64,000 nt of DNA from Spirosoma endbachense (GTDB taxonomy: Bacteria > Bacteroidota > Bacteroidia > Cytophagales > Spirosomataceae): contig NZ_CP045997.1 of NCBI RefSeq assembly GCF_010233585.1, positions 6,561,018-6,625,017 of the forward strand. The letters are read 5' to 3'. Made by a program: the position numbers and the translations under genes. Every line of letters begins with the position of its first letter. The stretch's first letter is position 1. This document shows, piece after piece, positions 27,720 to 45,173 of the stretch. The notes beneath the pieces are model-generated. The model worked only from the letters and a program-made list of their open reading frames with translations. It ran no database searches and had not been told where the DNA came from.

Positions 27720-28057
27720 CATTTATTAGTTGTCAAAAAACCAAAAATGGATACTTCAATTTGTTGCATTATAAATACTATTTAATTTGCTAATTGTGCA
27801 AGAAATGATTATTATTGCCAAGGTAGTAACCAGAAGTGACAATAGCTGCTGGTTTGTAACAAAGCGAATTTATAATTGATTATAAGATCATTTAACAAAA
27901 TTCGTTTTGTTCATACAGAATAATAGGTGATATAATTCGTGTTAATACTGATAATTTATCGTTACAATTTTGCCGTACACACAATCTCAATGTGACCGTG
28001 CCTTTCTGTTTACGTCAGATTGATATAATGTTTTGAATTTTAATGCATTTTAGATAC
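27720..28057. other. AT-rich intergenic region upstream of the TetR-type regulator
   Basis: About 340 bases, strongly AT-rich, with no supportable gene. I found no complete TAnnTTTG promoter and no clear palindromic operator by eye. Confidence 0.5.
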
Positions 28058-28735
28058 ATGGAGAAGGACGAGAAGGTCAGACGCAACCGCGCTAAAACAA
28101 CTCAGCGCATCGTAGAAGCGTTAGAAGAAGTCATTGCAGAGCGGGGTCTGGAAGGAGTTGGAGTCAATCGGGTTGCAGAAAAGGCTAATGTCAGTAAAGT
28201 GCTGATTTATCGCTACTTCGGCGGTATGGAAGGGCTTCTGGAATACTATGTAAAAATGGGCAAATTATTCCCAGTATTCAATCCAGCTGTCTTAGACCAA
28301 ATTCGTCCTTTACAAGAGTCTGATGTGGCTCGTATCTGGTATCGCCAGGTTATCCAGACCTACCGTTACTTCCGTACGTTTAAAGCAGCCCGTGAAATCC
28401 TGAAAGCAACTGTTATCGAAAATGATTCGATTGCAGAAACAACAGCAAGAGCACAAGACGAAGAAATGACACGTCTTGTCGAGCAGCTTTCATTCGTTAA
28501 GGGGGCCGATACACAAGCCATTTCGGCAATTGTTCTTGGTGCTATGACCTACCTAACGATCATGGCTCAGAACGATCGTACCATGATCAGTATTGATCTT
28601 CGGAGCGAAGAAGGATGGAAACGCATCGAAAATGCCGTTAAAACCATTTATATCGCTCTGAATAAAATGGCGATTCAATCAAAAGAGGTTAATCTGGAGT
28701 TACAGTCGGCTCATCTGCCAATGGCTCAGTGGTAA
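28058..28735 (+). CDS. TetR/AcrR family transcriptional regulator
   Basis: A 225-residue one-component regulator. The N-terminal helix-turn-helix spans about 8-55: RAKTTQRIVEALEEVIAERG, then VGVNRVAEKANVSKVLIYRYFGGMEGLLEYY, the classic TetR DNA-binding block. The remaining all-helical domain would bind a ligand that cannot be predicted. The second ATG is preferred because the TetR block normally starts within about 10 residues; an ATG 15 bases earlier is possible. It is monocistronic, convergent with the GH65-type gene and separated from it by a very long hairpin. Its targets are not evident. Confidence 0.9.
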   Translation: MEKDEKVRRNRAKTTQRIVEALEEVIAERGLEGVGVNRVAEKANVSKVLIYRYFGGMEGLLEYYVKMGKLFPVFNPAVLDQIRPLQESDVARIWYRQVIQTYRYFRTFKAAREILKATVIENDSIAETTARAQDEEMTRLVEQLSFVKGADTQAISAIVLGAMTYLTIMAQNDRTMISIDLRSEEGWKRIENAVKTIYIALNKMAIQSKEVNLELQSAHLPMAQW

Positions 28736-28817: not shown

Positions 28818-30863
28818 TTACTGCACCTGTACAGTTTTTAAGTCAGGCCCAATTCCTTTTATCGTTAGCGATTTCCATTTTTTTGGCAACTTTGTTTTAA
28901 GTTGTGTAATACCGCTGTCTGAAATTTCAAGCCCACCAAACCCATTCAGCACCGCTTGCAGCATACCACCCGCTCCTGTTGCAAAATAAGGGTTTGTTCC
29001 ACCAGCGGTTTCGGCCAATACATTAAACGGTGGTACTTCATTCGGTTTATAGCTCTTCACAAACCAATCATAAGCTTTATCGGGATTACCAAGACGAGCG
29101 TGTAGCGTCGATAAAACCGACCAGCCCATAGCCGGACCATCGGGTGAATAGCGGGGTTCATAGTAGGCAAGATCTTTTTTAATCGAATTTTCATCGGCTA
29201 TGATATGAAGCGGATAAGCCAGCAGATTGACATCAGCCTGTTTGATCATAACTCCGTCGTACGTGCGATTTTCCTTCGTTACACCATCCGGAAATTTCAG
29301 AATTGGTAGATTGTCGGCAACAAGTTTCCAGTCTGGATCCGGCGTTACTCCTAACTCCTGAGCCGCTTGTATGGCATACTCCAGCGACGTTTTAGCCATA
29401 CCGTTCGTGAACGCGTTGTCGTCGATGTTTTCCTGCCACTCATTTGCGCCAATGACGTTGTTAATGTGAAACTTGCCTGGGCCTTCACGCTCTACACGGC
29501 TACTCCAGAAAGCTGCCACTTCTTTTAGCATTGGGTAGCCACGCGTACGAAGCCATTCTTTGTCTTTCGTTACCTGGTAATACTTCCAGAAAGACCAGCC
29601 AACACAACCCGTAATATGTTGCTGAAAGGGGCCTGTCAGCGCCCATACGGGCGTAGCTTCCTGCCCATCAGTATCCGACTCCCAGGGGAACATAACGCCC
29701 GCATAGCCATGACTGAATGCATTTTGCCTGGCCATCGACATCCGTTCAAAGCGATATTCCAGCATTGATCTCGCGATTTCGGGCTTTAGGGTTAAAATGG
29801 GCGGATACATCCACAATTCCGTATCCCAGAAGACGTGACCATTATAGCCAAGCCCCGATAACCCCATTGGCGACAGGCTATAACCGGTTCCCTCCCGGAC
29901 AAATGAATACAGGTGATACAGTGCTGAGCGAACAGCGCGCTGGGCATCCGGATCACCGTCTATAATAATGTCGCTTCGCCAGAGCTTAGCCCATTCTGCG
30001 TTGTGACGAATAAGCAATCGCTCCGTACGTTCCAGAGCGGCAAAGAGCGTAAGCCTTTCCGCTTCGTTATGCGGATCGGCGGTGTGTGCCGTCGATGATA
30101 CAGAACCCACTACACTGAACCGATACGTTGTTCCGGCTTTCAGGCGTTTTTTGAACTTGGCCAGATGCATGTTGTAATCCCAGTCTTCATGAATCACATC
30201 GGGTTCCTGGCCATGAGGCTCCTCAAAAATGAAGCTATTGGAAGCAGCAACGGTATGCCGTCCGGAAGGGCTTTTAGCCACTGAGGTCAGTAACCGAATC
30301 GTGACGTGTGAGCGGTCGATCTCCGAATAAAAATTCTTTACTTCTTTAAGGTTCTCGGGGGTTTCGATCACACTCATCGGGCTAATTTCACAATCTTTTC
30401 TGGCCGTAATTTCGACCATTGTCAATTGCGAAAATGGCAGATGACGCAATGCCATCATCGTTTGCCGAACACTTACTTTATCTTTAAAATCAAACGTAGT
30501 TGTTAAGGCCGCCTTCTGCATATCAAGCGTTTGGCGGTAATTACTGATGTCTTTCGACCCAAGCCGCTGCCCATCTACATCGAGGTTCATATTGGCAAAA
30601 TTGAACACTTTCAGGATATTCGAGACACGACCACGGCCATAGGTATCAAAAGCGCCATTTAATACCACGTCTTTCACTTTCATTGGCTCCGGCGACGACA
30701 CAAGGCCAATCATTCCATTGGCCACTGTTATGCCGTAATAGTTAGCAGGATTGATATTCTGACCTACAATCTGCCAGCCCGCATTGTCGACTTGCGCAGT
30801 TGCCGTTAGAGAAAGCGTATAAGCTGCCAGCAGGAAGCCGCTCACAATTAGTTTTCTATCCAT
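28818..30863 (-). CDS. Exported GH65-type glycoside hydrolase
   Basis: A 681-residue protein with an N-terminal signal peptide (KLIVSGFLLAAYTLSLTATAQ), then a beta-sandwich domain (about 30-270) and an (alpha/alpha)6 barrel (about 290-640), the layout of glycoside hydrolase family 65. HVFWDTELWMYPP at about 343-355 and the candidate general acid Glu475 in GANEWQEN are family motifs. The region where phosphorylases carry a phosphate-binding loop instead has LAETAGGTNPYF with a Glu that could be the base of a hydrolase, as in kojibiose hydrolase and ATHL1-like enzymes. So hydrolysis of an alpha-glucoside in the periplasm is more likely than phosphorolysis. It is last in the minus-strand block that begins with SusC. 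Confidence 0.85.
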   Translation of the reverse strand: MDRKLIVSGFLLAAYTLSLTATAQVDNAGWQIVGQNINPANYYGITVANGMIGLVSSPEPMKVKDVVLNGAFDTYGRGRVSNILKVFNFANMNLDVDGQRLGSKDISNYRQTLDMQKAALTTTFDFKDKVSVRQTMMALRHLPFSQLTMVEITARKDCEISPMSVIETPENLKEVKNFYSEIDRSHVTIRLLTSVAKSPSGRHTVAASNSFIFEEPHGQEPDVIHEDWDYNMHLAKFKKRLKAGTTYRFSVVGSVSSTAHTADPHNEAERLTLFAALERTERLLIRHNAEWAKLWRSDIIIDGDPDAQRAVRSALYHLYSFVREGTGYSLSPMGLSGLGYNGHVFWDTELWMYPPILTLKPEIARSMLEYRFERMSMARQNAFSHGYAGVMFPWESDTDGQEATPVWALTGPFQQHITGCVGWSFWKYYQVTKDKEWLRTRGYPMLKEVAAFWSSRVEREGPGKFHINNVIGANEWQENIDDNAFTNGMAKTSLEYAIQAAQELGVTPDPDWKLVADNLPILKFPDGVTKENRTYDGVMIKQADVNLLAYPLHIIADENSIKKDLAYYEPRYSPDGPAMGWSVLSTLHARLGNPDKAYDWFVKSYKPNEVPPFNVLAETAGGTNPYFATGAGGMLQAVLNGFGGLEISDSGITQLKTKLPKKWKSLTIKGIGPDLKTVQVQ

Positions 30864-31080
30864 AAATGCCATCAATTAAATAATAGCTAAAAATAATACC
30901 ATTTTTCAGGATAAATGGCTTATTCGATCGGCTTCGGAGAATTCGAACGTTAAGGTCAATTCGCTACGGATATTTCCGATGGACAATGCCGAAATCGTTG
31001 ACCAGGATTTCGTTCATCTTTCGAAGGACACTTAAGTTGATAAAAGACCGAATTTCCAGCAATAATCTCGGCTTATTCGC

Positions 31081-31746
31081 TTATCGGCCGTGCGCATGTC
31101 CCGATCGGCCGGTTCGGCCTACCCGAGGTCTACCCACACGAATTAGCGCCCCGGAATCGGTACGCATCAGTCCATAACGGATGCAAATTCCGTAGAATGT
31201 TTTCGATGCGTCGGTGGTTTCGTTGCTAAAGTCGTAGTAGCCTGTTGTCAGGCCAATTCCCAGGCGAGGGGCAACCTGAGCGATAATATTGTAGGTAAGC
31301 TCCAGCATCAGGCTTCCCTGCTGATCGAAGACCCGGCCAGCTCCAATTGTCATCTCATTGGCAAAGACACCGTAATTGGCAACATCCATCGTTACCCGGC
31401 CTTCAACGAACAGCGTAGAATCCGGACGCAGTGAATTTCGCCCAAAAACAATACCCAGGTCAATTACATTGAATGTTTTACCAATCTCAATACTCTGTGC
31501 AATACGATCTTTGGGCTTTCCGGCCCCTGTATAAATCAAAAATGGCGAAGAACGCACATACCATGGAGCTGCTTTAAAATTAAAAACCGAGCGCGTTGAA
31601 TCTTCCGGCGAACGGCTAAGGGTACGATAAGTATCTCTATTTTGATCGGCTCGCGTTTTTGTCGAATCTGCTGATGACTGCGCTTGCAGTTTTGTTGTCT
31701 GCGCCGATAAAATGATGCTAAACAATGCCAGAAAACGTATTACCAT
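31081..31746 (-). CDS. Predicted outer-membrane beta-barrel protein, function unknown
   Basis: A 221-residue secreted protein with no family I can name. MVIRFLALFSIILSAQTTKLQAQ is a signal peptide; ATG here is preferred to an upstream TTG. After a polar linker rich in Ser, Asp and Arg, alternating hydrophobic/polar strands follow (SIEIGKTFNVIDLGIVFGRN, FVEGRVTMDVANYGVF, GLTTGYYDFSN, YGICIRYGLMRT), compatible with a small barrel or porin-like fold. The C-terminus is Gly/Arg/His-rich (RTGRSGHAHGR), unusual for a barrel, which normally ends in an aromatic residue. It lies between the GH65-type and haloperoxidase genes on the same strand, with a terminator upstream of it. Confidence 0.6.
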   Translation of the reverse strand: MVIRFLALFSIILSAQTTKLQAQSSADSTKTRADQNRDTYRTLSRSPEDSTRSVFNFKAAPWYVRSSPFLIYTGAGKPKDRIAQSIEIGKTFNVIDLGIVFGRNSLRPDSTLFVEGRVTMDVANYGVFANEMTIGAGRVFDQQGSLMLELTYNIIAQVAPRLGIGLTTGYYDFSNETTDASKTFYGICIRYGLMRTDSGALIRVGRPRVGRTGRSGHAHGR

Positions 31747-31790
31747 AGCAGACAAAGTGCGTTATGAGCGTATAACTTGCCAATTACTAA

Positions 31791-31825
31791 AAAAAAGAAC
31801 CGCCTTTAACGAGCGGTTCTTTTTT
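31791..31825 (-). terminator. Terminator after the haloperoxidase gene
   Basis: AAAAAAGAACCGC and its perfect 13-base complement surround a 9-base loop and provide T-runs on either strand. It ends the haloperoxidase transcript 17 bases beyond the stop codon. Confidence 0.88.
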
Positions 31826-31841
31826 AAGCATCTTTTAATTG

Positions 31842-33197
31842 CTACCGACTGGCTACGGCCGATCTCCTGGTATGAATTTTTTGGATAACCCACTTGCCGA
31901 CCTGCTCCCCTTCAATCTGTCCATTCACTAGTGCCGATCTATAGTGAATGCCACCATACATCCGGCTAATCGACGCTTCATCGGCAGCATCCCGGAACGA
32001 CTTAAACGACCGGACACCATGCCCATATTGAAACTCGGTTGAGTCAGTAAAGGCAACATTGTCGCCCATGAGGCTTGTCAATACCGTAGCCGCTGCGGTT
32101 GAAATCACACTGTGGCCGCTGGGATATTCGGGAAAGGGCGGTGTTTGAAGAAAGGGCGTCCATTTAGGGTCAATAGACTTGTTGATAACTGTTTCGGGCC
32201 GAACCGTTTTACTCCGGTATTTTTCGTCCCAGCAGGAAATGAAACCATCGGTCAACGCAAATGAAGTAAGAGCATATGCCTCAACAGTTTGTATCATAGT
32301 CAGCTTTTTCTGCCGGGCCACAGTTTGGGCAATTCCCAGCCAATGGCCGCCGGGAGTCATTTTCTTACTGGCATACATAACATGGCCAGCTACATTCATT
32401 ACAAAGGCATTATCGTCCCAGAAATAGGCAATGTCCTGCTTCTGTTTATCGAGGGTTTTTCCGGTTTGATACACTTCATCCAGTTCTTTTTCATAAGGAC
32501 TTCCCTTTTTTAAACTATACGGTAAAGGGCGTGGTGGCATGAACTGATTGCAGGTATCCATTGCCCAACAGCGTATTTTGTTCCATTGCGGTTCGGCAGC
32601 ATCCATATAGGCTGGGGGCGTTGGTACCCAAGTTCCTTCTTCGTTGGTAACGGTATGCTTAAAACCGCGGGTTTGCTTGTAGTTATCCTTCGCTGCATAA
32701 TCCAGAATATGCTTGGCAATCGTTTCTCCGTAAGCCATCGAACGATCGTAAACGTCATCAGGAAGGCCATCTTTTTTATACTGTTGGTAAAATGGCTTTT
32801 CAAATTCGTCATAGTATTCAACAGTGAACGTGAGTGCACGCGCAACGGTCAGTAATGCATGTATACTGGCGAGTGGAAAACAATACTCCTTCCCAGCCTG
32901 GGGCTTCGGGCTTGCCTGAAATCGTTTCAATTTCCCACCTAATGACTCATATTGAGCATCGTCAGGCACAAGTGCTTCATAACCCGCCAGGTTGGCATAC
33001 GCATAAATCCGACTGGCAACTGGTGGTGAAAAGATATCGTGAATAATGACCTGTGTCAGTTTGTTTAATGCCACATTATAGTTTTCTGGATTAGCAGCCC
33101 TGGCCTTGTATTCGGCTGGAGAAGCAGGCTTCTGACAACTGGCAACTGTTACCAGCAGGATGGCCAGTAGAAGACTGAATCGACGCGAAAAGTTCAT
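31842..33197 (-). CDS. Vanadium-dependent haloperoxidase family lipoprotein
   Basis: A 451-residue lipoprotein: the signal ends VASC with Cys21. The C-terminal PAP2/haloperoxidase domain has the complete vanadate-binding set, KYRSKTVRP (Lys326, Arg333), PSGH (359-362) and SRMYGGIH (Arg412, His418), matching KX6RP-PSGH-SRX5H. Such enzymes use peroxide to oxidise chloride, bromide or iodide, while relatives with the same site act as acid phosphatases; the motif does not tell them apart. Anchored in the outer membrane or periplasm it could halogenate or make hypohalous acid at the cell surface. It follows two CRTAC1-like genes on the same strand and has its own promoter-like site. Confidence 0.92.
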   Translation of the reverse strand: MNFSRRFSLLLAILLVTVASCQKPASPAEYKARAANPENYNVALNKLTQVIIHDIFSPPVASRIYAYANLAGYEALVPDDAQYESLGGKLKRFQASPKPQAGKEYCFPLASIHALLTVARALTFTVEYYDEFEKPFYQQYKKDGLPDDVYDRSMAYGETIAKHILDYAAKDNYKQTRGFKHTVTNEEGTWVPTPPAYMDAAEPQWNKIRCWAMDTCNQFMPPRPLPYSLKKGSPYEKELDEVYQTGKTLDKQKQDIAYFWDDNAFVMNVAGHVMYASKKMTPGGHWLGIAQTVARQKKLTMIQTVEAYALTSFALTDGFISCWDEKYRSKTVRPETVINKSIDPKWTPFLQTPPFPEYPSGHSVISTAAATVLTSLMGDNVAFTDSTEFQYGHGVRSFKSFRDAADEASISRMYGGIHYRSALVNGQIEGEQVGKWVIQKIHTRRSAVASR

Positions 33198-33254
33198 ACT
33201 CTAGTTTGACAAGTTAATACGGAATCAGCTCAGTTATTGATTAACCAATTGTTA

Positions 33255-33281
33255 CAAAATTAAGGGAAAATATCGGACAAA
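33255..33281 (-). promoter_or_regulatory. Possible promoter of the haloperoxidase gene
   Basis: On the minus strand this is TTTG, 15 bases, then TAATTTTG. The -7 box is a full consensus match 58 bases before the start, but the spacing is shorter than usual. Confidence 0.4.
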
Positions 33282-33308
33282 ACGGAGTTAACTACTGATT
33301 CTGCCTAA

Positions 33309-36300
33309 TTACAACGGTTTGAAGAGCTGTATTCCCATTCCATTCCGAGCAACGGCAATCAGTAACCCTTTTGGGGTCTGAATGGGGCGAATATCGCGAA
33401 TTTCACCATTGAGCAGAAATCCAGAATCTACAGGCGACAACGCGATAAAATTCCCTTTTCCATCGTTCTTCAATACTAATCCATAACTCGCATCGTAACG
33501 CCCCTGATACATACTAACACCATAGAAGTTCCCACCGCCTAACACGTCGAGATCGCCGTCGTTGTCAATATCTATAGCCTGTAGCGCAAATAGCTTCGAT
33601 ACCTGCGCCATCAAGGGTAGTTCATGGATAATAAACTTACCATTTTGGTTTTCCAGATAAATCGACGCGAATTGATTAACGGAATACTCCTCAGCCCCTT
33701 TTAAATCATCGGCTTTCAAGACATTATCCAGGGTCTTGCCCGCAAATGACACATAATCGGTGAATCGCTTATTAATAATGCCGGGCATCTGCTTACCCAA
33801 CTCATCTTTAAACGCCAATGGATACCAGTCCTTTCCACGATTATAGGCTATGATTTGCTCCGTACTTTGATTTCCGTCTATATCTTTCACCCACATGCGT
33901 AACTGCGAATCGGGCGCCTTTCGAAATTTGGTATTCGTTCCAAGATTACCCGCCATCAGATCAATATCGCCATCGCGATCAAAATCCGCAGCAATGACTC
34001 GCTGGTAGAATCCGTTTAAGGGAATCTCGTCTGTCGTGATCGGTTTGACTTCAGAAAACCTGCCTTTGTCATTGGCAAAAATGCGGATAGGCATCCAGTC
34101 ACCGGCCAAAATCAGATCCTGATCTTTATCGCCGTCGTAATCGGCCCAAACAGCATCCGTAATCATTCCGGCTTTACGCAATCCGGTAGCAAGCTTATCG
34201 GTCTGATCTGAAAACTTACCTTTCCCATCATTAATGAGCAGATACGAACCAGGTGATTTCCCGTAATTGAATCCCACAACTCGCCCGCCAACAAACAAGT
34301 CCAGATCACCATCGCGGTCAATATCAAATGGCCGAACACAACTTTTATTATCGTACATGGTCGGTAACGCATTGGCCGAACGGCTGAAACGCCCCCGCCC
34401 ATCGTTCAGATAAAGTCGATCAAACTGCTCGGTCATCTGGCCGTAGAACTCGTTTCCTCCCGATACGACATATAAATCCAGGTCTTTGTCGCCATCGGCA
34501 TCGAAGAAAACGGCATCTACGTCTTCGTACGTTGAGTCACGAATAAAGTCCGGTTGATTCGATGGAATAAATCGACCACTAGGTTGCTGGACCAATAAAC
34601 TTCCCGCCTGCCATTTGGCTCCGCCTGCATATACATCAGCTAAACCATCGCCATTTACATCACCAATGGCCAGATGCGGCCCTTCCGTCGATACTTTAAA
34701 TGGCATTAATGACTCGCGGACGAAATCGAAATAGTCACTATTTTCGAGATGACGATAGGGAATTGAATCTACTTTTGTAACATCGGCAAAGCGTGCTTGC
34801 ATAGCGGGCGCTGTATACCGAAAGGTTGTTCCATCGAGTTTCGCATCGGCTTGATTCAGAATGATCGGCTGGTTGCTTTTCACGTTTTTGCGAACTTCCA
34901 TGCGCTGAGTTGGCCAGATCACGATCAGCGAGTCAATGCTGTCATGATGGCCAAGACCAAATAATAATTCAGGAGCTACTGACGACTCAAAACCCCGTGT
35001 TGGCATCAGCTGCTGCATCTGCAGAGCGTTTCCCTGCTGCGAATCTCTATATTTCAAAATGACCTTCGCACCAATCCCAAACGTATTCGGAGAATCACCT
35101 TTCAATTTAACCGTCAGGTATTTGTTGTCAGGAAATAGTGAATTGGCTTCATTGCGGTACAGCCCGGCAGGATCATTGACATTATTGGTTACTATATCCA
35201 GATCGCCGTCATTGTCCAGATCAGCGTATACGGCCCCGCACGACAGCGTTGGTTGCGAAAAACCCCAGGCGGCCGATTTATCATCGAACTGGAGTCTGGC
35301 GGTTCCCCGATACAGATAGTTCGCTATTTTGCCTTCAGGCATGGACTGAATGGCCTTTTCATCGAGTTTCGACGATGCACCAAGCTCACTCTGTAACGAC
35401 TCATTAGAAATATATTTGACGTAGTCCAGGTTGTTAGGCCGTCGGGCAATTCCATTCGCAACGAAGAGGTCTTTGATACCATCATTGTCATAATCGGCCA
35501 ACAAGGGCGACCAGCTCCAGTCGGTAGCTGCTACACCTGCCATTACGCCTACATCCATGAATTTTTGCCCCGACAGGCTAATCTGCAAACAATTACGGCT
35601 GTATTGATTCATGTAACCGTATGAGAGTTTATACCGGTAAATATCCAGTGGATCTTCGCCCTGTGAGGCTTTTTCGACCGCTTCGTCGGCGGGGTACATG
35701 TCCAGTGTCATTACATCAGGATACCCGTCGTTGTTTACATCCGCAATGTCGTTGCCCATCGAAAAGCGGCTGGTATGCTGGAACGCCTGCCGGATACTTT
35801 CTACAAAACCGCCTTTGTGGTTATTAACGTAGTAATAGTCATCTTCGTGAAAATCATTAGAGACGTATAAATCTTCCCAACCGTCGGCATTCAGGTCGGC
35901 GATCGAGATACCTAGCCCATAACCCATTGCAGCCCCAAAAATGCCAGCCTGTTCACTAACATCAATAAAGTGCCCTTTGTCGTTTCGAAACAGGTAATCG
36001 CCCGACTCCTGGTTTCGGTCGTTACGAGTCGTTACACGATCAAAGCTTCGGGACGTATGAACAGCATGATTCAGTAGAAAACAGTCTAAATCGCCGTCAT
36101 GATCATAGTCGAAAAAAGCGGCCTGGGTCGAGAACCCGGAAAACGAAAGTCCATATTCAGTTGCTCGCTCCGTAAACGTTGGCACACCATCTGAACCAGG
36201 GCCATTGTTGATGTACAATTCATTATGGCCTCGTAGACCGTTGAATTTGCTAACTGCACAAACATATACATCCAGCAAGCCATCGCTATTAACATCGGCC

Positions 36301-36659
36301 ATCGTAACACCAGTCTGCCAATCTGCCTGACCAGCCATACCAGCTTTAGCTGTCGCGTCTGCGAATGTAAAATTCCCTTTGTTCAGGTACAGTTTGTTGG
36401 TTTCCTGATTGGAAATAAAATAAAGATCAGTCAGGCCGTCGTTATTCAAATCGCCAGCCGCTACACCGCCACCATTGTAGAAGTATAGATAATCCAAAAT
36501 GGATAGGCTGTCGGTATTGTGCAGCTGATTGACAAAGCCAATGCCGGTTTTCGTCGAATCAAGTAATTGAAACAATGGCTTCTCGGCGGCAGGCTGGTTT
36601 CCCGAGCAACCGGTTAATAAGCCTGTTACCACTATAAAAAGCCCCAATAAAACCCTCAT
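33309..36659 (-). CDS. FG-GAP/VCBS-repeat and ASPIC/UnbV lipoprotein, CRTAC1-like (copy 2)
   Basis: A 1116-residue surface or periplasmic lipoprotein with signal ending LLTGC (Cys18). About 13 calcium-binding loops of the DxDxDGxxD type are spread along it, for example DLNNDGLTD, DVNSDGLLD, DYDHDGDLD, DLDNDGDLD, DADGDKDLD and DIDNDGDLD, as in FG-GAP propeller blades. An ASPIC/UnbV domain lies at about 500-600 (ending LIVIWPTQ). This suggests two seven-bladed propellers around a central ASPIC domain. The molecular role of bacterial CRTAC1-like proteins is unknown; binding of carbohydrate or protein is assumed. It overlaps the previous gene by 4 bases (ATGA), so translation is coupled. The two copies have the same layout but differ throughout, so the duplication is old. 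Confidence 0.9.
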   Translation of the reverse strand: MRVLLGLFIVVTGLLTGCSGNQPAAEKPLFQLLDSTKTGIGFVNQLHNTDSLSILDYLYFYNGGGVAAGDLNNDGLTDLYFISNQETNKLYLNKGNFTFADATAKAGMAGQADWQTGVTMADVNSDGLLDVYVCAVSKFNGLRGHNELYINNGPGSDGVPTFTERATEYGLSFSGFSTQAAFFDYDHDGDLDCFLLNHAVHTSRSFDRVTTRNDRNQESGDYLFRNDKGHFIDVSEQAGIFGAAMGYGLGISIADLNADGWEDLYVSNDFHEDDYYYVNNHKGGFVESIRQAFQHTSRFSMGNDIADVNNDGYPDVMTLDMYPADEAVEKASQGEDPLDIYRYKLSYGYMNQYSRNCLQISLSGQKFMDVGVMAGVAATDWSWSPLLADYDNDGIKDLFVANGIARRPNNLDYVKYISNESLQSELGASSKLDEKAIQSMPEGKIANYLYRGTARLQFDDKSAAWGFSQPTLSCGAVYADLDNDGDLDIVTNNVNDPAGLYRNEANSLFPDNKYLTVKLKGDSPNTFGIGAKVILKYRDSQQGNALQMQQLMPTRGFESSVAPELLFGLGHHDSIDSLIVIWPTQRMEVRKNVKSNQPIILNQADAKLDGTTFRYTAPAMQARFADVTKVDSIPYRHLENSDYFDFVRESLMPFKVSTEGPHLAIGDVNGDGLADVYAGGAKWQAGSLLVQQPSGRFIPSNQPDFIRDSTYEDVDAVFFDADGDKDLDLYVVSGGNEFYGQMTEQFDRLYLNDGRGRFSRSANALPTMYDNKSCVRPFDIDRDGDLDLFVGGRVVGFNYGKSPGSYLLINDGKGKFSDQTDKLATGLRKAGMITDAVWADYDGDKDQDLILAGDWMPIRIFANDKGRFSEVKPITTDEIPLNGFYQRVIAADFDRDGDIDLMAGNLGTNTKFRKAPDSQLRMWVKDIDGNQSTEQIIAYNRGKDWYPLAFKDELGKQMPGIINKRFTDYVSFAGKTLDNVLKADDLKGAEEYSVNQFASIYLENQNGKFIIHELPLMAQVSKLFALQAIDIDNDGDLDVLGGGNFYGVSMYQGRYDASYGLVLKNDGKGNFIALSPVDSGFLLNGEIRDIRPIQTPKGLLIAVARNGMGIQLFKPL

Positions 36660-39600
36660 TGCCGGGGTCCTTTCGTTAGCGAAAAGACCTGCGCCCGATC
36701 GTTATTTTTGGCCAGGATGATGAACGGTTTTCCATTAGCTCCATGTCCAGTCTGCATTCTACGCACTTGTCCGCGAACAAAAAAGCCCGTATCCCTGGGC
36801 TTCCTCGCCGTAAACTCGCCTTTACCATTACCTGTTAACAAGAGTCCATAGTTAGCATCGTAACGCCCTAACTCAGTCAGCACATCGAAGAAATTGCCAG
36901 CCAGTAGAATGTCCATTTTACCATCATTGTCGTAGTCATCCGTCAGAATGGCATGAATCGGCGACGTCTGAGCCTGTATAGGAAGCGCTTTAAGGGTAAA
37001 ATTGCCTTTACCATCATTAATCATTACCGACGTTTCGGCTTCCTGAACCATTTTAATGCTCGTTCCTTCCCGCTGCTGAGCTGAAAAAATATCCTCATAA
37101 CTAGCCCTGGCATAGTCGGAGTGCTTAATGTATTTCGTTTTTATTGACGGAATACGCTTTTGCAGATCAGGTTTCTGAACCATGACGCACTCGCGACGTT
37201 CTCCATCTGAAACAGGGCGAAAACAGGTAACTACCTGCTCGTAAGATCCGTTACGATCGAAATCATTGCTGTATAAATGAGCTGGTTCTTCTTTTGAGGC
37301 AACCATACGGCTGTTCAAACCAAGATTACCAACGACAAAATCAATATCGCCATCCTGATCAAGATCAGCCGCCCGAATGGCGTTCCACCAGCCACCCGTA
37401 GCAGCCAACGTTTCGTTATCGAACCGCTCGAACCCTTTACCCTGTTTATTTTTCAGGATCGTAATTGGCATCCAGTCGCCAACCAAAATTAGATCAGGGT
37501 AATGATCGTTGTCAATATCTGACCAGACAGCATCCTTTACCATGCCGATTTCTTTCGAAAAAGGTAGTAATTCAGCAGTTGCCTTCCGAAAGTTTCCTCG
37601 GCCATCATTGACAAGTAGCAGTTGATCCGGGCTTTTACCATATTGCCCCGACACCATACGCCCACCAACGAACAAATCCTGATCACCATCGCGATCAAAG
37701 TCAGCCGCAACAACGCATGAATTATTTTCCAGGCTGCGGGGTAAGCTTTTATCCCAGGTAAAATTGCCTTTACCATCATTTCGATAAAGTCGATCGGCCA
37801 GATAATCGGGCTCATCAAACTCGTTTCCTCCCGTAGCGATATACAAATCCAGATCCTTGTCGCCATCGGCATCAAAAAAGGTTGCCCCAATATCTTCTGT
37901 ATACAGCGCATCAAGCAAAAATGGCTGTTTGTCAAGGCTAAACGTTCCTGTTGGCTGCTGCATATACAAAGAACGCGGCATATTGGCGGCACCGCCCAAA
38001 AATACATCGTCGAGCCCATCCCCATTTACATCGCCAATGGCTAAGGCAGGCCCTTCCCGCGAGAGCATTTCTTTTAATAAACCATCGCGGTTATAATCAA
38101 CGAACTCATTTTCTTTATGCCTGTAATCCAGGCCAGATACACCTGTTACGTCCGTAAAAAGGCGTGGCCCAGTCGTTGGCTGATTAGAAAATATGGCTGT
38201 CTGGTCTGCCTCTTTATGCGTCAGATTAAGCGTTGTATTGGCCTTTAATTGCCGAATAACCTGCTTTTTATCATCGGGCCAGATGACAGTCAGGGAATCA
38301 ATTGCCGGATTATCACCCAGACCGAATACCATAGTCAAATCCACCGACGACTCAAAACCCCGGTTCGGCATTTGTTGCAGGTATTGGGTCTGCACCTGGC
38401 CATCAGTCGATTTTTGATAGACATACACTTTAGCGCCAATCGCATTCAGGTTATGTCCATTTCCGGTAAGCTTTACCCGTAGGAAGTTCTTATGGTTTTT
38501 GTCAACAGCCGTGTTTTTATAGATTGACACCGGTAAGTTGTTGTTATTGACAACTAAGTCCAGATCGCCATCATTGTCCAGGTCACCATAGGCCGAGCCA
38601 TTCGAGAAGGATGGGGTACCAAGCCCCCATTCGGCTGCTTTGTTTTCAAACTGCATGCCGTTACCTACATTCCGGAATGCGTAATTAGGCAGGGGACTAG
38701 ATCCCATTTTATCTACGTATTCTTTATAGTCGAATTTTTTAGTGCCTTCAATCATCGACTGCAAATCGGGATTGTCGGCCAGAAAGGCTACATAATCCTG
38801 ATCAGTAAGATCTTTGAGGATGCCATTCGCGACGAAAATATCTTTTTTGCCATCCATGTCCATATCGAACAACAAGGCTCCCCAACTCCAGTCGGTAGCT
38901 GCCGTTCCAGCCATTCGACCGATTTCAGAGAATGTACCATCACCATTGTTGAGGTGAAGCATATTGCGTGGATCCTGATAAAAAAAATCGCGTGACTCTT
39001 TCAATTGCCCCAACTCGTAGCTTTCGAAGGATGTTGTCGTTTTAAGGCGGTAATCATCGTCGGGCAACATATCGGTTACGAAAATATCAAGATTACCGTC
39101 GTTATTGACATCAGCAATATCAGCCCCCATTGAGGAAAGACTGATGTGGCCCATTTCGTTTTCAACGTCCTCTTTAAACGAACCGTTTTTCTGGTTGATG
39201 TACAGATAATCCCGCTCGTAAAAATCATTAGAAATATAAATATCAGGCCAGTTATCGTTGTTAACATCGCCAATGGTAATACCTAACCCAAAACCAATCA
39301 GGCTGCCATAAATACCGGCCTGTTGGCTAACATCCTTAAATGGCTTATCAGGTCCTTCGTTCCGAAACAATTTATCGCCCCCCAGTTTATCGCGTGTGTC
39401 GCGCATATTCTGGTAACCCAGGCGATCCATTGGCGTGAAACTGTTATTCAGCAGGTACATATCCAGATCACCGTCACGATCGTAGTCGAAAAAAGCTGCG
39501 TGGGTCGAGAAACCGCCATCAACCAGACCATACTCCTTCGCTTTTTCTACAAATGTAGGCACACCCTGTCTTACGCCCTGATTAATATATAATTGGTTTC

Positions 39601-40015
39601 CCCGCTCATCGCGGCTACCGGAGTTACACACATAAATATCGAGTAGTCCGTCGCCGTTCACATCCGCAAACGTGATGCCCGTTGACCAGAACTTCTTACT
39701 CAGAATCCCTGCTTTCCGGGTAATATCGTCAAACTTCATCCCGCCTTTGTTGAGATAAAGCTTATTTTCTTCAAAATTGGACGTTAGAAACAGGTCAGGC
39801 AGGCCGTCATTGTTAACGTCTCCAATAGCAACTCCGCCCCCATTATAGAAATTACGATAGCTGAAAATGTTAAAATCCTTTTTATCGAGGCTCCTGTTTA
39901 CAAAGTTTATACCCGTTTCACTCGCGGGTAATGCCTCGAAAAGGGTATTAGTATTGCTATGGCACGATAATAGTCCAAGTAGACTAGCAGCCAATAGACC
40001 CAATTTTTTTGTCAT
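36656..40015 (-). CDS. FG-GAP/VCBS-repeat and ASPIC/UnbV lipoprotein, CRTAC1-like (copy 1)
   Basis: A 1119-residue lipoprotein with signal ending LLSC (Cys18), paralogous to the next gene along its full length. I count about 14 DxDxDG-like calcium loops, including DVNNDGLPD, DVNGDGLLD, DYDRDGDLD, DVNNDGNLD, DLDNDGDLD, DFDRDGDQD and DYDNDGKMD; one blade has Asn or Asp substitutions (DVNNDNWPD, DIDNDHYPD). The ASPIC/UnbV region includes GIGAKV-like NAIGAKVYVYQK and SLTVIWPDD. It lies downstream of a SusC/SusD pair on the same strand, separated from SusD by 421 bases that contain a terminator and a long palindrome, so it may have its own promoter. Function unknown. Confidence 0.9.
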   Translation of the reverse strand: MTKKLGLLAASLLGLLSCHSNTNTLFEALPASETGINFVNRSLDKKDFNIFSYRNFYNGGGVAIGDVNNDGLPDLFLTSNFEENKLYLNKGGMKFDDITRKAGILSKKFWSTGITFADVNGDGLLDIYVCNSGSRDERGNQLYINQGVRQGVPTFVEKAKEYGLVDGGFSTHAAFFDYDRDGDLDMYLLNNSFTPMDRLGYQNMRDTRDKLGGDKLFRNEGPDKPFKDVSQQAGIYGSLIGFGLGITIGDVNNDNWPDIYISNDFYERDYLYINQKNGSFKEDVENEMGHISLSSMGADIADVNNDGNLDIFVTDMLPDDDYRLKTTTSFESYELGQLKESRDFFYQDPRNMLHLNNGDGTFSEIGRMAGTAATDWSWGALLFDMDMDGKKDIFVANGILKDLTDQDYVAFLADNPDLQSMIEGTKKFDYKEYVDKMGSSPLPNYAFRNVGNGMQFENKAAEWGLGTPSFSNGSAYGDLDNDGDLDLVVNNNNLPVSIYKNTAVDKNHKNFLRVKLTGNGHNLNAIGAKVYVYQKSTDGQVQTQYLQQMPNRGFESSVDLTMVFGLGDNPAIDSLTVIWPDDKKQVIRQLKANTTLNLTHKEADQTAIFSNQPTTGPRLFTDVTGVSGLDYRHKENEFVDYNRDGLLKEMLSREGPALAIGDVNGDGLDDVFLGGAANMPRSLYMQQPTGTFSLDKQPFLLDALYTEDIGATFFDADGDKDLDLYIATGGNEFDEPDYLADRLYRNDGKGNFTWDKSLPRSLENNSCVVAADFDRDGDQDLFVGGRMVSGQYGKSPDQLLLVNDGRGNFRKATAELLPFSKEIGMVKDAVWSDIDNDHYPDLILVGDWMPITILKNKQGKGFERFDNETLAATGGWWNAIRAADLDQDGDIDFVVGNLGLNSRMVASKEEPAHLYSNDFDRNGSYEQVVTCFRPVSDGERRECVMVQKPDLQKRIPSIKTKYIKHSDYARASYEDIFSAQQREGTSIKMVQEAETSVMINDGKGNFTLKALPIQAQTSPIHAILTDDYDNDGKMDILLAGNFFDVLTELGRYDANYGLLLTGNGKGEFTARKPRDTGFFVRGQVRRMQTGHGANGKPFIILAKNNDRAQVFSLTKGPRQ

Positions 40016-40097
40016 TATCTAACTCAATTAATCAAGTTACATTCCACTGAATCGCCTGTTATTACGGCAAGGCATCGATTGTTTGCTTAGATGATAT

Positions 40098-40222
40098 AGG
40101 GTTTTCGCTTAGATGCGTGCCACCGCAGCCGCGGACGGTGGTTACTGATGGCGAACTGATAACCACGGTCCGCCGTTGCGACCGTCCGCGGCTGCGGTGG
40201 CACGCATCTAAGCGAAAGCCCT
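40098..40222. repeat. Long GC-rich imperfect palindrome
   Basis: Two 42-base arms, complementary at 41 positions, flank a 41-base loop. The arms contain GATGCGTGCCACCGCAGCCG and its complement. The loop holds a second hairpin (GTGGTTA/TAACCAC) and a diverged direct copy of part of the arm (GGTCCGCCGTTGCG beside CGTCCGCGGCTGCGG). It is much richer in GC than its surroundings. It resembles dispersed REP or MITE-like elements more than a terminator, but I see one copy only. Confidence 0.75.
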
Positions 40223-40385
40223 AATGATTTTAGTAGAAGCAGTTTCAATACGTTTTTAACGAATGCGTTGGTGTATCTTTCTGATTTGCATGACTTTCAT
40301 AAAGCCATAGTCTGCCAGCGGTAGCACGGCGTTTTGCAAAAGTCATGGCTTACTAACTGTCAGGTATCCCAGTTGACAAGAAACA

Positions 40386-40415
40386 AAACAGCAGCCCACT
40401 ATCAGGCTGCTGTTT
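40386..40415 (-). terminator. Terminator after the SusD gene
   Basis: AAACAGCAGCC and its exact complement form an 11-bp stem with an 8-base loop. On the minus strand the T-rich tail TGTTTC follows. It ends the SusC/SusD transcript. Confidence 0.8.
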
Positions 40416-40436
40416 AATCAATCTAGTTAAGATAGC

Positions 40437-42002
40437 CTAGTATCCGGGATTCTGTTTCAGATTCGGATTACTATCAACGGCACGTTGTGGAATTGGGAAT
40501 AATACTTTCGTATCAGCCGATTTCGAAGGGCGGTTATCTACCGGATCGAGGAAGGTACCAAAACGAATCTGGTCATTCCGACGCCAGCCTTCCCAGTACA
40601 ATTCAAATCCACGCTCGGCCAAAAGAGCCTTTGCATCAATTGGCGTCTTAGCAGCGACACCACGCGTTGTGCGCAAATTGTTTACAATCTGTTCAGCTGT
40701 CTGTCCGGATGGATCGGTCCCACCGCGCAGAATGGCTTCTGCTTTCATTAGCAGCAAATCAGCATAACGAAAGAATACATAGTCGTTCGCAGGATTGTCC
40801 AGAAAGCCTGGCTGAGGGAGGTATTTAACTACCCGTATTCCTTTAGCCTCCAGCGCATAAGAGAGATTAACATCAGGCGTAAAAACGAGTGGGTTACCAC
40901 TTCGATCTTTCAGCGGGGCACCTTTCTTATCAAATTGCTGACCCACCAGAAAACCAGCCCGCACGCCTATACTGTCCGTTATGCCCGTAACAGCTTTGCC
41001 TAAACGCTCATCAGCCTTATCAAAGCTATTATAGAAATCAGCCAGTGTTGTGAAACCGTTCCAGCTACTTGGTTGCTGGTTATAGTGCAACGTCATGTAA
41101 TAACGGTTACGCACGTTTCCTGGCTGAGCAGAATTGTCATTCGCGATGACATATATGTTCTCTTTGGATGCTGTTGAGTTGCTGGGCGAGAAGTTATCAA
41201 AATACGCGCCTTTCGGTTGTAATGAGAACTTACCCGATGCAATAACCGTATTACAGGCTGCAATGACAGCATCCATATCAGCCTTTGCAAACGTAAACGG
41301 ACCGGCTGGCGAAGCGGCTGGTTGCTTATATACAGCTTTGTTTAGCAGTATTTTAGCCAATAGGAACTGAGCTGCTTCTTTAGACCCTCTATTGTTGGTA
41401 GCTGCCGTTACAGTTGGCAGATTCGGTATAGCCGCTGTTAAATCTGCGACTATATAGTCAGTAGCTGCTGAACGATCAAGCACTTTAGGGTTTGCATCAG
41501 CGGCATCTGTTGCTTCACGAACCGGAACCTGTCCGTATAAATCAACGACATAGAACATAAAGAACGCCCGCAAAAACTGCGCCTGCGCTTTAATAGCGGC
41601 ATCGCTCCCAGCTACTGAAATTGTCTGCGTAGCCTTAAAAGCACCGCTGTTCAAATTGTCCCAGGCATTGTTGATCTCAACGTGTTCAGGTGTCCAGGTA
41701 TGCTGATGCAGCTTGCGCCAGGTACCGAAGTCATCCCAGTCTGTTCCCCGCGTAGGGCCCTGCATTTCGTCAGTCGGATGTTCTTCCATTGCATAAGTTC
41801 CACCCTGACCATTAGCCAACGCATTAAGAGCTGAAATAGCCCCCTGCAACGAACTGGCTGGATCGATGGGAACGGAAGTAGAACTAGCTGTTTCTGAAGA
41901 TAGTTTTCCCAGAACAGTATCATCCAGTTTAGAACAACCCGCTGTACCAAGCAACAGCGTGGCGCTCAATAACGTGATTGTTTGATATTTAGTAAACTCC
42001 AT
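40437..42002 (-). CDS. RagB/SusD family nutrient-uptake lipoprotein
   Basis: A 521-residue SusD-type lid lipoprotein; signal ends GTAGC with Cys23. Conserved features of the main RagB/SusD clade are present: INNAWDNLNSGAFKA near 105, QAQFLRAFFMFYVVDLYGQVPV at about 160-180, the late FFRYADLLLMKAEAILRGG and the C-terminal ERGFELYWEGWRRNDQIRFGTF block. It pairs with the SusC encoded 105 bases upstream. The substrate is not readable from sequence, though the block it belongs to has only one carbohydrate enzyme, of GH65 type. Confidence 0.95.
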   Translation of the reverse strand: MEFTKYQTITLLSATLLLGTAGCSKLDDTVLGKLSSETASSTSVPIDPASSLQGAISALNALANGQGGTYAMEEHPTDEMQGPTRGTDWDDFGTWRKLHQHTWTPEHVEINNAWDNLNSGAFKATQTISVAGSDAAIKAQAQFLRAFFMFYVVDLYGQVPVREATDAADANPKVLDRSAATDYIVADLTAAIPNLPTVTAATNNRGSKEAAQFLLAKILLNKAVYKQPAASPAGPFTFAKADMDAVIAACNTVIASGKFSLQPKGAYFDNFSPSNSTASKENIYVIANDNSAQPGNVRNRYYMTLHYNQQPSSWNGFTTLADFYNSFDKADERLGKAVTGITDSIGVRAGFLVGQQFDKKGAPLKDRSGNPLVFTPDVNLSYALEAKGIRVVKYLPQPGFLDNPANDYVFFRYADLLLMKAEAILRGGTDPSGQTAEQIVNNLRTTRGVAAKTPIDAKALLAERGFELYWEGWRRNDQIRFGTFLDPVDNRPSKSADTKVLFPIPQRAVDSNPNLKQNPGY

Positions 42003-42107
42003 GAATAGTTTTATTAAATGGTTTTTGCCTAATTCGAGCCCTTCATATCTCCAAGAAAACCAGTTTGCTTACGTATTGGAAATACGAAAAATTCATACAA
42101 TTAGTTT

Positions 42108-45100
42108 TTAAAATCCAACATTTAATCCCAGCGTAACTGTACGTGGCGATGGGAAAGGTGTGTAGTCAATCGCCAGCGACGGAATATTATTGAGCGTTTT
42201 GATCGTGTTCACCTCTGGATCAAGGCCTGTGTAGCTCGTAATAAGCAACAAATTTTGCCCAGACAGCGACAGGCTCAATGTTTTTGCAAAACCACCCTGT
42301 GGCAACGTAAACGCATAGCTAACCGAGGCATTGGCTAACCGAACAAAATCGCTCTTTTCAAGGAAACGAGTCGATACTGAACCTGAGTTCAAGGGACTTT
42401 CGCTACTGCTGGCTACATCCTGCGTTACATTGCGGCCGTTTTTCAGAGATCCTTTCAGGAAGAGCGCGTTTGCGGTATTGTTATAAACATAGCCCCCAAA
42501 CTGGCTGTTGAAGAACAGACTGGCGTTGAATTTGCCAAACGTAAAATTGTTCGTTAAGCCAAACCGCATCCGGGGAAATGGATCACCCTGAATTTTCGAT
42601 GCACCACCATCAGCATACGTACCCAGCCCATTGGCATCGAGGCCAGTATAGGTCTGCATAATGAACGAGAATGGCGCATAGCCGTCCCGAATGGTCTGCC
42701 CAAAAGCACCCGAAAGGCCCTGTCCGTCAATTGGCCCTGTTGGTATAGATGTGCCAATCCCCTGCACAACAGGTTTCAGGAATGTAGCATTCGCTGCGAC
42801 TTCCCAGCTGAACTTTTGTTTTTGAACGGCCTGGAAATTCAGCGAAACTTCAACTCCCTTGTTGATAACTTCACCGGGCAGGTTCACCCATTTGTAAGTA
42901 ACAGGAGCCGGCTGTGCATAAAACACCTGAAATAGCAGGTTGGTAGTCGATTTGTTGAAATAATCGACAGAACCACTTAACCGACCTTTCAACACGGTGA
43001 AATCAAGACCAGCGCCATAGGTTGTATTCTGCTCCCACTTGATATTGGGGTTCGGGTTGTTATCCTGCACAGTTGACCCATCTGAGTTCCGGGTAAAGAT
43101 GATCTTCGATACGCCCCCTGCAAAGTCCTGATTCCCCGTAACACCGTAGTTAACCCGTAGTTTGAGGTCATCAAAAATACTCTTTGGCACAAAGCTTTCC
43201 TGCGACAAACGCCACGCTCCTGCCAGTGAGGGGAAATACCCATATTTATTATTTATCCCAAACCGGGACGAACCATCAGCCCGTAACGTAGCGGTTATCA
43301 GGTATTTATCCTGAATGCTATAGTTAACACGGCCAAAATAGGACTGGAGATCATTCTGCGAGTGATCGGATGTTGCACCAAATGCCTTATAGGTTAGTCC
43401 GTTCGCTCCGCCCAGATTGTCTGTATAGCTAATTACATCCAGGTTATAGCCAAAATAGCTAGCCAGGGCTGTGTTTTGCTGGTTGTTGAATTTCTGATAT
43501 GAAAAGCCAGCCAGAGCTTCCAGGCTATTTCCAGCTATCTTCGTATTATAATTCAGTGTGTATTCAACCAGCTTTGAGGTGCGGTACTTATTATTGATAA
43601 TAGCAGCCCCATTGCCCTGAACGGAAACCTGGTTATTACTGATCGCCAGGTTAAAGTTACCTCCCAGACGCGAATCGAGTTCCGTACGACGTACTGCGGT
43701 TGCATTATCAATACCAAAGTTAGCTTTGAACTGTAATCCTTCCAGGATCTGCCAGGTTAAACTCGCGTTTGCCAGCGTCCGGTTGGTTTCGCCCCGGTCG
43801 CGATCATAGGCAAGAATAGCAGCCGGATTACGGAAGTCACCACCAGGTTGATAGAATGTCCCATCAGGGTTGGTAACCGGATAGGTTGGGTTAGCCTGAA
43901 TGGCTGCTCCAATCAAATTCCCCTGAGCACCCGCATTCGTGGTATTCAGAACATACTGGTCCTGAAGGTTCGAAGTCGTTGCATTTAATGCCAGCGTTAC
44001 TTTGTGATCAAACAAGTCATGACTGGCATTGATACGGCCGGTTATCCGCTTCTGACCCGAATTTCTGACTATACCTTCCTGGTCCTGATAACCAACAGAG
44101 AACCGATAGCGGGTATTTTCGTTACCACCGCCAAAACCGACGTTATAGTTCTGGGTAACACCCGTCCGTAAAATCTGGTCCTGCCAATCCGTAGAGGCTT
44201 TTTTGTCAACCTGGCTAAGATCACCACCAGCCGCTGTTACACCAGCCAGAAATTGCTGTGCATTCAGAAGATCATACCGCTTGTAGGCCGAGGCTACACT
44301 GGCCGAGGCCGAGAATGTAAGGTCGCTCTGACCAACTCTTCCTTTTTTTGTTGTAATCAACACCACACCATTGGCACCTCGAGCGCCATAAATCGCGGAA
44401 GCTGAAGCATCTTTAAGTACCGAAATATTTTCGATATCAGATGGATTCAGGAAGCTCAAGGGGTTACGTGGGGGCGATGTACCACCACCAAAATCCGTCG
44501 TTACGCCCGTATCACCACCATCGAGAGGCACACCATCAATAACAAACAATGGGTTGTTGCCAGCACGCAGAGAAACCGCACCCCGAATTGAGACATTGAT
44601 ACCTGCACCTGGTTCACCACTGGAAGGGGTAATCTGAACGCCCGACACACGGCCTTGTAATAATTGTTCTGGCGAAGATATAACCCCTTTATTGAAGTCT
44701 TTGGTACCTAACGATGCCACTGATCCAGTAGCATCTTTTACTTTCTGCGTACCATAGCCGACTACAACCACTTCCTGAAGAGCTTTGGTATCGTCAACCA
44801 GTTTTACATCTATGGTTGAACGATCGCCTACTGCTACCTCTTGCGTTACGTAACCGATAAAACTCAATACAAGTGTGGCATTATCTGGTACATTCGCTAA
44901 AGAGTATACACCATCTCCATTAGTTGTTGCTCCCCGCTGTGTCCCTTTTAACTGAACGCTTACCCCTGGTAAACCAAACCCAGTAGGGTCTGTTACTTTA
45001 CCTGTTACGGTACGTCCCTGCGCCCATGCTACCGAATTACCAAGTAGCATAATCATTACCAGCATCGACAGAAAACCAAAAGCCGTTTTCCGCGCAAATA

Positions 45101-45173
45101 GCTGGGGTTGAGTAGTCCCAACCTGACCTACGTAACCACCAAAGTGGCTACTAGTGTAGGATTTGTCCATCAT
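42108..45173 (-). CDS. SusC/RagA-type TonB-linked outer-membrane importer
   Basis: A 1021-residue channel that works with the SusD lid downstream. The signal peptide is unusually long, about 52 residues with hydrophobic core FLSMLVMIMLLGNSVAWAQG. Then come a carboxypeptidase-regulatory-like domain (GKVTDPTGFGLPGVSVQLKG), the TonB box (LQEVVVVGYGTQK), a plug with SGVQITPSSGEPGAGINVSI and ENISVLKDASASAIYGARG, and the beta barrel to a terminal Phe. There is no STN domain, so unlike the SusC at 11515 it is not set up to signal to an anti-sigma factor, and no sigma/FecR pair is nearby. Two adjacent ATG codons can start it. Confidence 0.95.
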   Translation of the reverse strand: MMDKSYTSSHFGGYVGQVGTTQPQLFARKTAFGFLSMLVMIMLLGNSVAWAQGRTVTGKVTDPTGFGLPGVSVQLKGTQRGATTNGDGVYSLANVPDNATLVLSFIGYVTQEVAVGDRSTIDVKLVDDTKALQEVVVVGYGTQKVKDATGSVASLGTKDFNKGVISSPEQLLQGRVSGVQITPSSGEPGAGINVSIRGAVSLRAGNNPLFVIDGVPLDGGDTGVTTDFGGGTSPPRNPLSFLNPSDIENISVLKDASASAIYGARGANGVVLITTKKGRVGQSDLTFSASASVASAYKRYDLLNAQQFLAGVTAAGGDLSQVDKKASTDWQDQILRTGVTQNYNVGFGGGNENTRYRFSVGYQDQEGIVRNSGQKRITGRINASHDLFDHKVTLALNATTSNLQDQYVLNTTNAGAQGNLIGAAIQANPTYPVTNPDGTFYQPGGDFRNPAAILAYDRDRGETNRTLANASLTWQILEGLQFKANFGIDNATAVRRTELDSRLGGNFNLAISNNQVSVQGNGAAIINNKYRTSKLVEYTLNYNTKIAGNSLEALAGFSYQKFNNQQNTALASYFGYNLDVISYTDNLGGANGLTYKAFGATSDHSQNDLQSYFGRVNYSIQDKYLITATLRADGSSRFGINNKYGYFPSLAGAWRLSQESFVPKSIFDDLKLRVNYGVTGNQDFAGGVSKIIFTRNSDGSTVQDNNPNPNIKWEQNTTYGAGLDFTVLKGRLSGSVDYFNKSTTNLLFQVFYAQPAPVTYKWVNLPGEVINKGVEVSLNFQAVQKQKFSWEVAANATFLKPVVQGIGTSIPTGPIDGQGLSGAFGQTIRDGYAPFSFIMQTYTGLDANGLGTYADGGASKIQGDPFPRMRFGLTNNFTFGKFNASLFFNSQFGGYVYNNTANALFLKGSLKNGRNVTQDVASSSESPLNSGSVSTRFLEKSDFVRLANASVSYAFTLPQGGFAKTLSLSLSGQNLLLITSYTGLDPEVNTIKTLNNIPSLAIDYTPFPSPRTVTLGLNVGF

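Follow-up and report, generated by a model that had tools for sequence, protein, structure and literature searches.

Related Systems and the Locus

The closest described systems are sugar uptake loci and vanadium iodoperoxidases. Classical Sus polysaccharide utilisation loci, and the branched-dextran locus FjDexUL of Flavobacterium johnsoniae, represent the former and the vanadium iodoperoxidase of Zobellia galactanivorans (4cit, 4usz) the latter. Iodine uptake by Arenibacter sp. C-21 requires glucose, oxygen and calcium, and this strain has at least five relatives of the Zobellia enzyme (PMC5064120). In Zobellia, vIPO3 was upregulated on Ascophyllum (PMC9296495). Genes of both kinds stand together in a 64-kb stretch of a 10.3-Mb single-contig Spirosoma genome (the whole stretch is called the window). 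Seven genes on its minus strand encode, in order, SusC, SusD, two CRTAC1-like lipoproteins (CRT_A and CRT_B; such genes are called CRT genes), a haloperoxidase, a small protein and a glycoside hydrolase of family GH65. The locus is a real, recurrent and unusual variant of Sus-like loci. We read it as an outer-membrane uptake locus for small alpha-glucosides, with a probability of roughly one half. The block change of SusC-SusD-CRT_A as a cassette is new in this analysis.

Recurrence of the Gene Set

Recurrence was examined in three samples. For the genus sample, the best haloperoxidase place and its surroundings were taken from every one of the 35 further genus genomes found in a search of the family, where 213 of 222 genomes contained haloperoxidase relatives (E 0.001). 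A run was defined as SusC, SusD, at least two CRT genes and the haloperoxidase on the same strand, with small open reading frames (ORFs) of fewer than 260 codons skipped. This run was read in 27 of the 35 genomes. Of the remaining eight, L129, L144 and L146 lay at contig ends and L156 was truncated in the fetched stretch; L159 contained all genes, but their reading frames were split, and L133, L149 and L160 had no SusCD or CRT gene in view. The combination was also found in other families. For an earlier note on this DNA, absence of the order from every other genome would have been a refutation; the recurrence clears that test.

The named collection comprised the best 80 haloperoxidase contigs, which included several near-duplicates, either among themselves or with genus genomes. 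An upstream stretch of 6 kb or more was available for 63 of them, and 24 of the 63 contained same-strand CRT genes. The class draw comprised 395 genomes, 24 of which contained a total of 25 GH65 places of the kojibiose hydrolase type (own window included) at E 1e-100; all 25 were read. At 12 of the 25 places a same-strand haloperoxidase relative lay no more than 3 kb away, a CRT gene was within 5 kb at 12, and 11 places had both. The 11 doubly linked places came from six genus codes in four family codes, with one genus supplying five of them, and their internal order had changed, which argues for a functional tie between GH65, haloperoxidase and CRT genes. The chance of such closeness was roughly 0.4 to 1.2% per gene, assuming independence.

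Two Types of Receptor Cassette

The first three genes encode a SusC/RagA TonB-dependent transporter (42108..45173; TIGR04056, 687 bits against a cut-off of 368; NCBIfam), a SusD-like lipoprotein with a lipobox followed by CSKLDD (40437..42002; PF07980, SusD_RagB, 71.1 bits against a cut-off of 23.1; Pfam) and the two-propeller FG-GAP/ASPIC-UnbV lipoprotein CRT_A (36656..40015). SusC and SusD are neighbours, as Sus-like loci require, and a glycan-active enzyme (GH65) is also present. The nearest relative of the window (locus L126 of genome G185) shared 96% identity in the haloperoxidase, 97% in the small protein, 83% in CRT_B, and 98 and 100% in the flanking genes; the syntenic SusC, SusD and CRT_A shared 41, 35 and 57%. 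DNA identity between the two dropped from 95% near the SusC start (about 45.2 kb) and was back at 87–94% at about 35.06 kb, within CRT_B near the start of the ASPIC domain.

The comparison covered 32 of 37 clusters. L143, L154 and L158 were left out because their CRT genes were shifted, split or missing, and L090 and L094 because they are distant outgroups. Mean identities within type 1, within type 2 and between types were 60, 77 and 34% for SusC (some type 1 rows being cut by the ends of fetched stretches), 62, 77 and 35% for SusD, and 77, 78 and 57% for CRT_A. The corresponding values were 72, 80 and 72% for CRT_B and 77, 80 and 78% for the haloperoxidase. Thus SusC, SusD and CRT_A split into two types, the window belonging to type 1, and CRT_B and the haloperoxidase showed no type split. 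In the SusD tree (35 rows) type 1 formed one clade (Shimodaira-Hasegawa-like approximate likelihood ratio test, SH-aLRT, 100). Mapped on the haloperoxidase tree, this label required eight changes, at least five of them forced by well-supported branches; this was no fewer than chance (82 of 500 shuffles were as low).

Type 1 and type 2 sister rows also occurred in two further genus codes (L235/L236 and L237/L238). Both cassettes stood in tandem in three genomes (L131/L239, L132/L240 and L138/L241). Duplication followed by differential loss could therefore explain the pattern just as well as replacement, and the changes are not readable as gains. One further locus (L234) was called both types from a partial SusD. 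The alternative cassette was not found elsewhere in either of the two genomes: the best match to the type 1 SusD in G185 was 42%, and the best match to the type 2 SusD in the Spirosoma genome was the syntenic counterpart at 40%. Besides the syntenic G185 gene at 60%, no further CRT match to CRT_A exceeded 46% in either genome. Altogether, SusC-SusD-CRT_A is strongly supported as a cassette that comes in two alternative types and has changed repeatedly, with CRT_B, haloperoxidase and flanks constant.

GH65 and Accessory Genes

The last gene of the cluster (28818..30875) encodes an exported GH65 protein (216.7 bits against a cut-off of 27; Pfam) that scored 1130 bits against a cut-off of 800 with the kojibiose hydrolase model NF053734 (NCBIfam) and matched 7fe3 at E 1.8e-234. 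All nine residues of the active-site set were kept (E479, E622, M337, P581, A582, F631, W398, E399, T414); PMC8626586 gives their roles as general acid, general base, hydrolase signature and +1 subsite. The acid Glu was conserved in all 48 haloperoxidase-linked homologues and the base Glu in 47 of them. Family model and active-site residues both identify the window enzyme as a predicted kojibiose hydrolase (alpha-1,2-glucosidase). Its listed TTG start probably lies upstream of the true ATG. L126, which has no GH65 gene, contained near its TetR gene a 77% match to window positions 29350–29513, perhaps a deletion remnant.

Outside Spirosoma, loci in which the haloperoxidase was linked to CRT genes or GH65 contained MFS, MIP channel, DUF3179, ROK, PfkB, trehalase, GH13 and SSF symporter genes (Pfam, NCBIfam), and a second GH65 of the PRK13807 domain type with a beta-phosphoglucomutase. 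Glycerol kinase reached 737.9 bits against a cut-off of 590, with the L104 and L182 kinases above the GlpK cut-off. The GlpD-type oxidase of L104 reached 360.7 bits against a cut-off of 360, and that of L099 fell below it. The L113 trehalase was above two subfamily cut-offs. In L099 GH65, haloperoxidase, channel, glycerol kinase, GlpD-like, ROK and PfkB genes all lay on one strand.

Accessory genes were counted in 22 CRT-linked and 36 unlinked haloperoxidase loci, each covered for 6 kb in either direction. GH65 was found in ten linked and two unlinked loci, aquaglyceroporin in eight and one, glycerol kinase in six and none, GlpD-like genes in five and none, and ROK in seven and none (Fisher p 0.0005 to 0.006). 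DUF3179 was also seen near the CRT-haloperoxidase set, in seven of the 22 linked loci (L092, L096, L098, L099, L103, L104, L114) and none of the 36 unlinked. At the class-draw places, any of MFS, ROK, PfkB and trehalase was found at 8 of 25. The accessory gene set points to small alpha-glucosides; glucosylglycerol would engage both the sugar and the glycerol genes.

The Haloperoxidase

The haloperoxidase lipoprotein (31842..33197) contained a PAP2 domain (41.2 bits against a cut-off of 27.2; Pfam) and matched the Zobellia iodoperoxidase 4cit at E 2.4e-126 over residues 10–443. The Zobellia enzyme was the only solved relative found by sequence. The closest named relatives of the window protein were from Spirosoma species (77 to 86%). 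The window protein has the vanadate ligands, which we take to be K, R, G, H, R and H, and so do all 139 distinct relatives from the fetched loci; the Ser of PSGH was kept in 137 of these 139. This places the protein among vanadium haloperoxidases, in the iodoperoxidase branch, and agrees with the intact vanadate site seen by the earlier note. The Asp four residues past the last His, presumably part of the acid-phosphatase motif, is replaced by Ala in the window protein and in the iodoperoxidase 4cit, and 70 of the 75 CRT-linked relatives show the same replacement. This speaks against the dephosphorylation that the note had also proposed. Nor did any gene among the identified neighbours, many neighbouring ORFs being unidentified, point to its suggested phenolic substrate or halogenation of it. 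To our knowledge, the cellular role of such haloperoxidases is unsettled; our guess is hydrogen peroxide removal or halide oxidation near phototroph sugar sources. In several Dyadobacter loci (L063, L064, L067 and others) a haloperoxidase relative of about 55% lay divergent to a run of SusC, an unknown gene, CRT and a haloperoxidase of about 32%.

CRTAC1-Like Proteins, Small Protein and Intergenic DNA

CRT_A and the second CRTAC1-like lipoprotein, CRT_B (33309..36659; PF13517, PF07593), contained FG-GAP_3 repeats and UnbV_ASPIC (75.0 and 69.6 bits against a cut-off of 23.4; Pfam), as expected of the CRTAC1/ASPIC-UnbV group; CRT_A, the one of the two compared by fold, also had the CRTAC1 fold. 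Bacterial CRTAC1-like proteins have, as far as we know, no job assigned so far. CRT_A stands beside SusD, in place of a Sus surface glycan-binding lipoprotein, and varies jointly with SusCD; a surface-signal test was weak. The genome contained nine ASPIC genes, six of them near a same-strand SusC (two in the window, and those in L166, L167, L168 and L170), so SusCD-CRT pairing extends past this locus. L167 (7657000–7676999) is a second locus of the order SusC, SusD-like, unknown, CRT and haloperoxidase (46%), with no GH65 in view; its unnamed gene had a weak cytochrome cbb3 match below the cut-off.

The small exported protein (31081..31755; 224 aa) had no Pfam or NCBIfam match and was absent from some relatives (alignment of 15). 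Its model was an eight-stranded barrel of modest confidence (predicted local distance difference test score, pLDDT, 66.9), and its best PDB matches were outer-membrane barrels, none below E 0.001. It is thus a probable eight-stranded outer-membrane barrel, in line with the barrel first suggested for it.

ORF, Pfam and NCBIfam analyses returned the seven envelope genes with the order, strand, coordinates and families originally described. Export signals were likewise found on all seven, by inspection and regular expression and not by a signal-peptide program: a lipobox Cys in SusD, CRT_A, CRT_B and the haloperoxidase, and an N-terminal signal-type stretch in SusC, the small protein and GH65. 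There is a 4-nt overlap between CRT_A and CRT_B; the other neighbours are separated by 86 to 205 nt, apart from SusD and CRT_A, which lie 421 nt from each other. This gap contained a strong terminator-like hairpin with a T-rich tail directly past SusD (40386..40415, minus strand); 61 nt fold at -21.8 kcal/mol (z -3.87), and none of 200 shuffles was as good. A single seven-gene transcript therefore cannot be assumed. The same gap contained an inverted repeat with 43-nt arms (40097–40223). An 18-nt piece of it had 14 genome copies at up to two mismatches (reversed control, none); it is a dispersed palindromic repeat. Between GH65 and the TetR gene, a palindrome (28754–28801) formed a 20-pair stem that was terminator-like on both strands.

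The locus is bordered on one side by a divergent FAD-oxidase/Fe-S protein gene (45648..48605, plus strand; 98% to the nearest relative), the divergent neighbour here in many Spirosoma genomes, and on the other by a TetR regulator gene (28043..28735, plus strand; PF00440; 100%).

Substrate and Alternative Readings

Uptake of small alpha-glucosides is suggested with moderate confidence as the substrate class. The exact substrate is weakly indicated as of the kojibiose type, with glucosylglycerol or trehalose possible. The envelope system for a glycosidic substrate proposed by the earlier note is thus supported, through the recurring order and the GH65 assignment; its phenolic, halogenation and dephosphorylation parts found no support. 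SusC-SusD with CRT_A would form a ligand-specific receptor, as their joint inheritance suggests, and CRT_B would be a constant accessory lipoprotein. Given its family, residues and signal peptide, GH65 may cleave the imported alpha-1,2-glucoside in the periplasm. The products would enter general metabolism or, in some relatives, the glycerol, glucose or trehalose pathways that linked genes encode. The haloperoxidase lipoprotein would bind vanadate and oxidise halide with hydrogen peroxide, removal of the peroxide near phototrophs being its guessed role.

Several observations weigh against this reading. GH65 is the sole sugar or glycerol gene of the window cluster, and no sugar-sensing regulator (SusR, HTCS or ECF/anti-sigma) adjoins it, the immediate neighbours being TetR and the FAD-oxidase. 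Of 34 genus loci, 18 had GH65 and two a short fragment of it; in 13 it was absent although the sequence extended to the TetR flank, and in one a contig end cut it off. Same-strand CRT genes were missing from 39 of the 63 haloperoxidase loci (11 of the 39 had an opposite-strand CRT gene), and a haloperoxidase within 3 kb from 13 of the 25 GH65 places, some of which were SusCD-GH65 loci of another kind. Glycerol genes occurred at one of the 25 class-draw places, and the loci that contained them were mostly from Cyclobacteriaceae or other Cytophagales. The accessory labels were picked after the linked loci had been viewed, and related loci are non-independent (L096 and L098 are near-copies). The four mentions of glucosylglycerol in PMC8626586 all concern another enzyme, so glucosylglycerol is not established as a substrate.

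Three other explanations were weighed. The facultative GH65 within the genus, the lineage-dependent accessory genes and the L167 locus would all suit a general receptor module of SusCD, CRT and haloperoxidase with an unspecified ligand, to which GH65 and the kinases are lineage-dependent passengers. The closeness of GH65 and haloperoxidase in four family codes of the class despite changed internal order argues against it, and we consider it doubtful, though the best of the three. Halide handling is less probable: the haloperoxidase as the core would oxidise surface iodide or bromide, SusCD-CRT would import an iodinated or iodine-binding product, and glucose from GH65 would fuel hydrogen peroxide formation. 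The Zobellia enzyme as sole solved relative, the Arenibacter requirements and a GMC oxidoreductase in L113 and L199 are consistent with it. However, Spirosoma is as a rule non-marine, the identified accessory genes are mostly catabolic, and many haloperoxidase relatives (39 of 63) lack same-strand CRT genes.

A phosphorylated glycoconjugate, such as a glucosylated glycerol-phosphate polymer, appears the least likely substrate. Here a PAP2-fold phosphatase would act, GH65 would remove alpha-glucose or kojibiose and glycerol genes would take the rest, as the PAP2 superfamily membership, the kojibiose hydrolase assignment and the glycerol kinase and GlpD-type protein of relatives would allow. It is at odds with the close similarity to iodoperoxidase and the Ala in the presumed phosphatase motif. 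Moreover, no phosphodiesterase family was found in 30 neighbouring ORFs scanned with Pfam, many others lying outside the scan, and the MFS protein looks like a sucrose symporter, although its score is well under the cut-off.

Beyond small alpha-glucoside uptake in the window, we tentatively suggest a distinct Sus-like locus throughout the class, in which an exchangeable SusC-SusD-CRTAC1-like cassette sits on a constant module of a second CRTAC1-like protein and a vanadium halide-oxidising lipoprotein, with a facultative alpha-1,2-glucosidase. The two receptor types would then coexist across genera as if variety were selected for, and nutrient uptake would involve a metal oxidant. The recurring gene set provides a sugar-uptake setting in which the roles of haloperoxidase and CRTAC1-like proteins become testable. 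The block change is a natural experiment that indicates receptor partners and allows ligand specificities to be compared.

Comparison with Known Systems

Like classical Sus loci, the window locus has adjacent SusC and SusD genes, more lipoproteins and an exported glycosidase; unlike them, it has CRTAC1-like proteins at the SusE/F position, a vanadium-type enzyme and no adjoining sugar sensor. With FjDexUL (PMC10316084) it shares SusC-SusD and an exported GH65 kojibiose hydrolase, and the FjDexUL enzyme FjGH65A is the nearest solved relative of the window GH65. The seven genes of the locus differ in lacking a GH66, GH31, GH97, SusE/F or SusR homologue, and contain two CRTAC1-like lipoproteins and a haloperoxidase instead. 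An endo-dextranase (GH66 or GH31), expected of branched-dextran loci, is absent from these seven genes (Pfam). Compared with vertebrate CRTAC1 (PDB 9etn), CRT_A is a lipoprotein with an extra C-terminal propeller (616–1119) and is tied to SusCD. The haloperoxidase resembles the Z. galactanivorans enzyme in near full-length similarity, presumed ligands and the Ala at the motif Asp, and differs from it as a lipoprotein within a SusCD-CRT-GH65 cluster.
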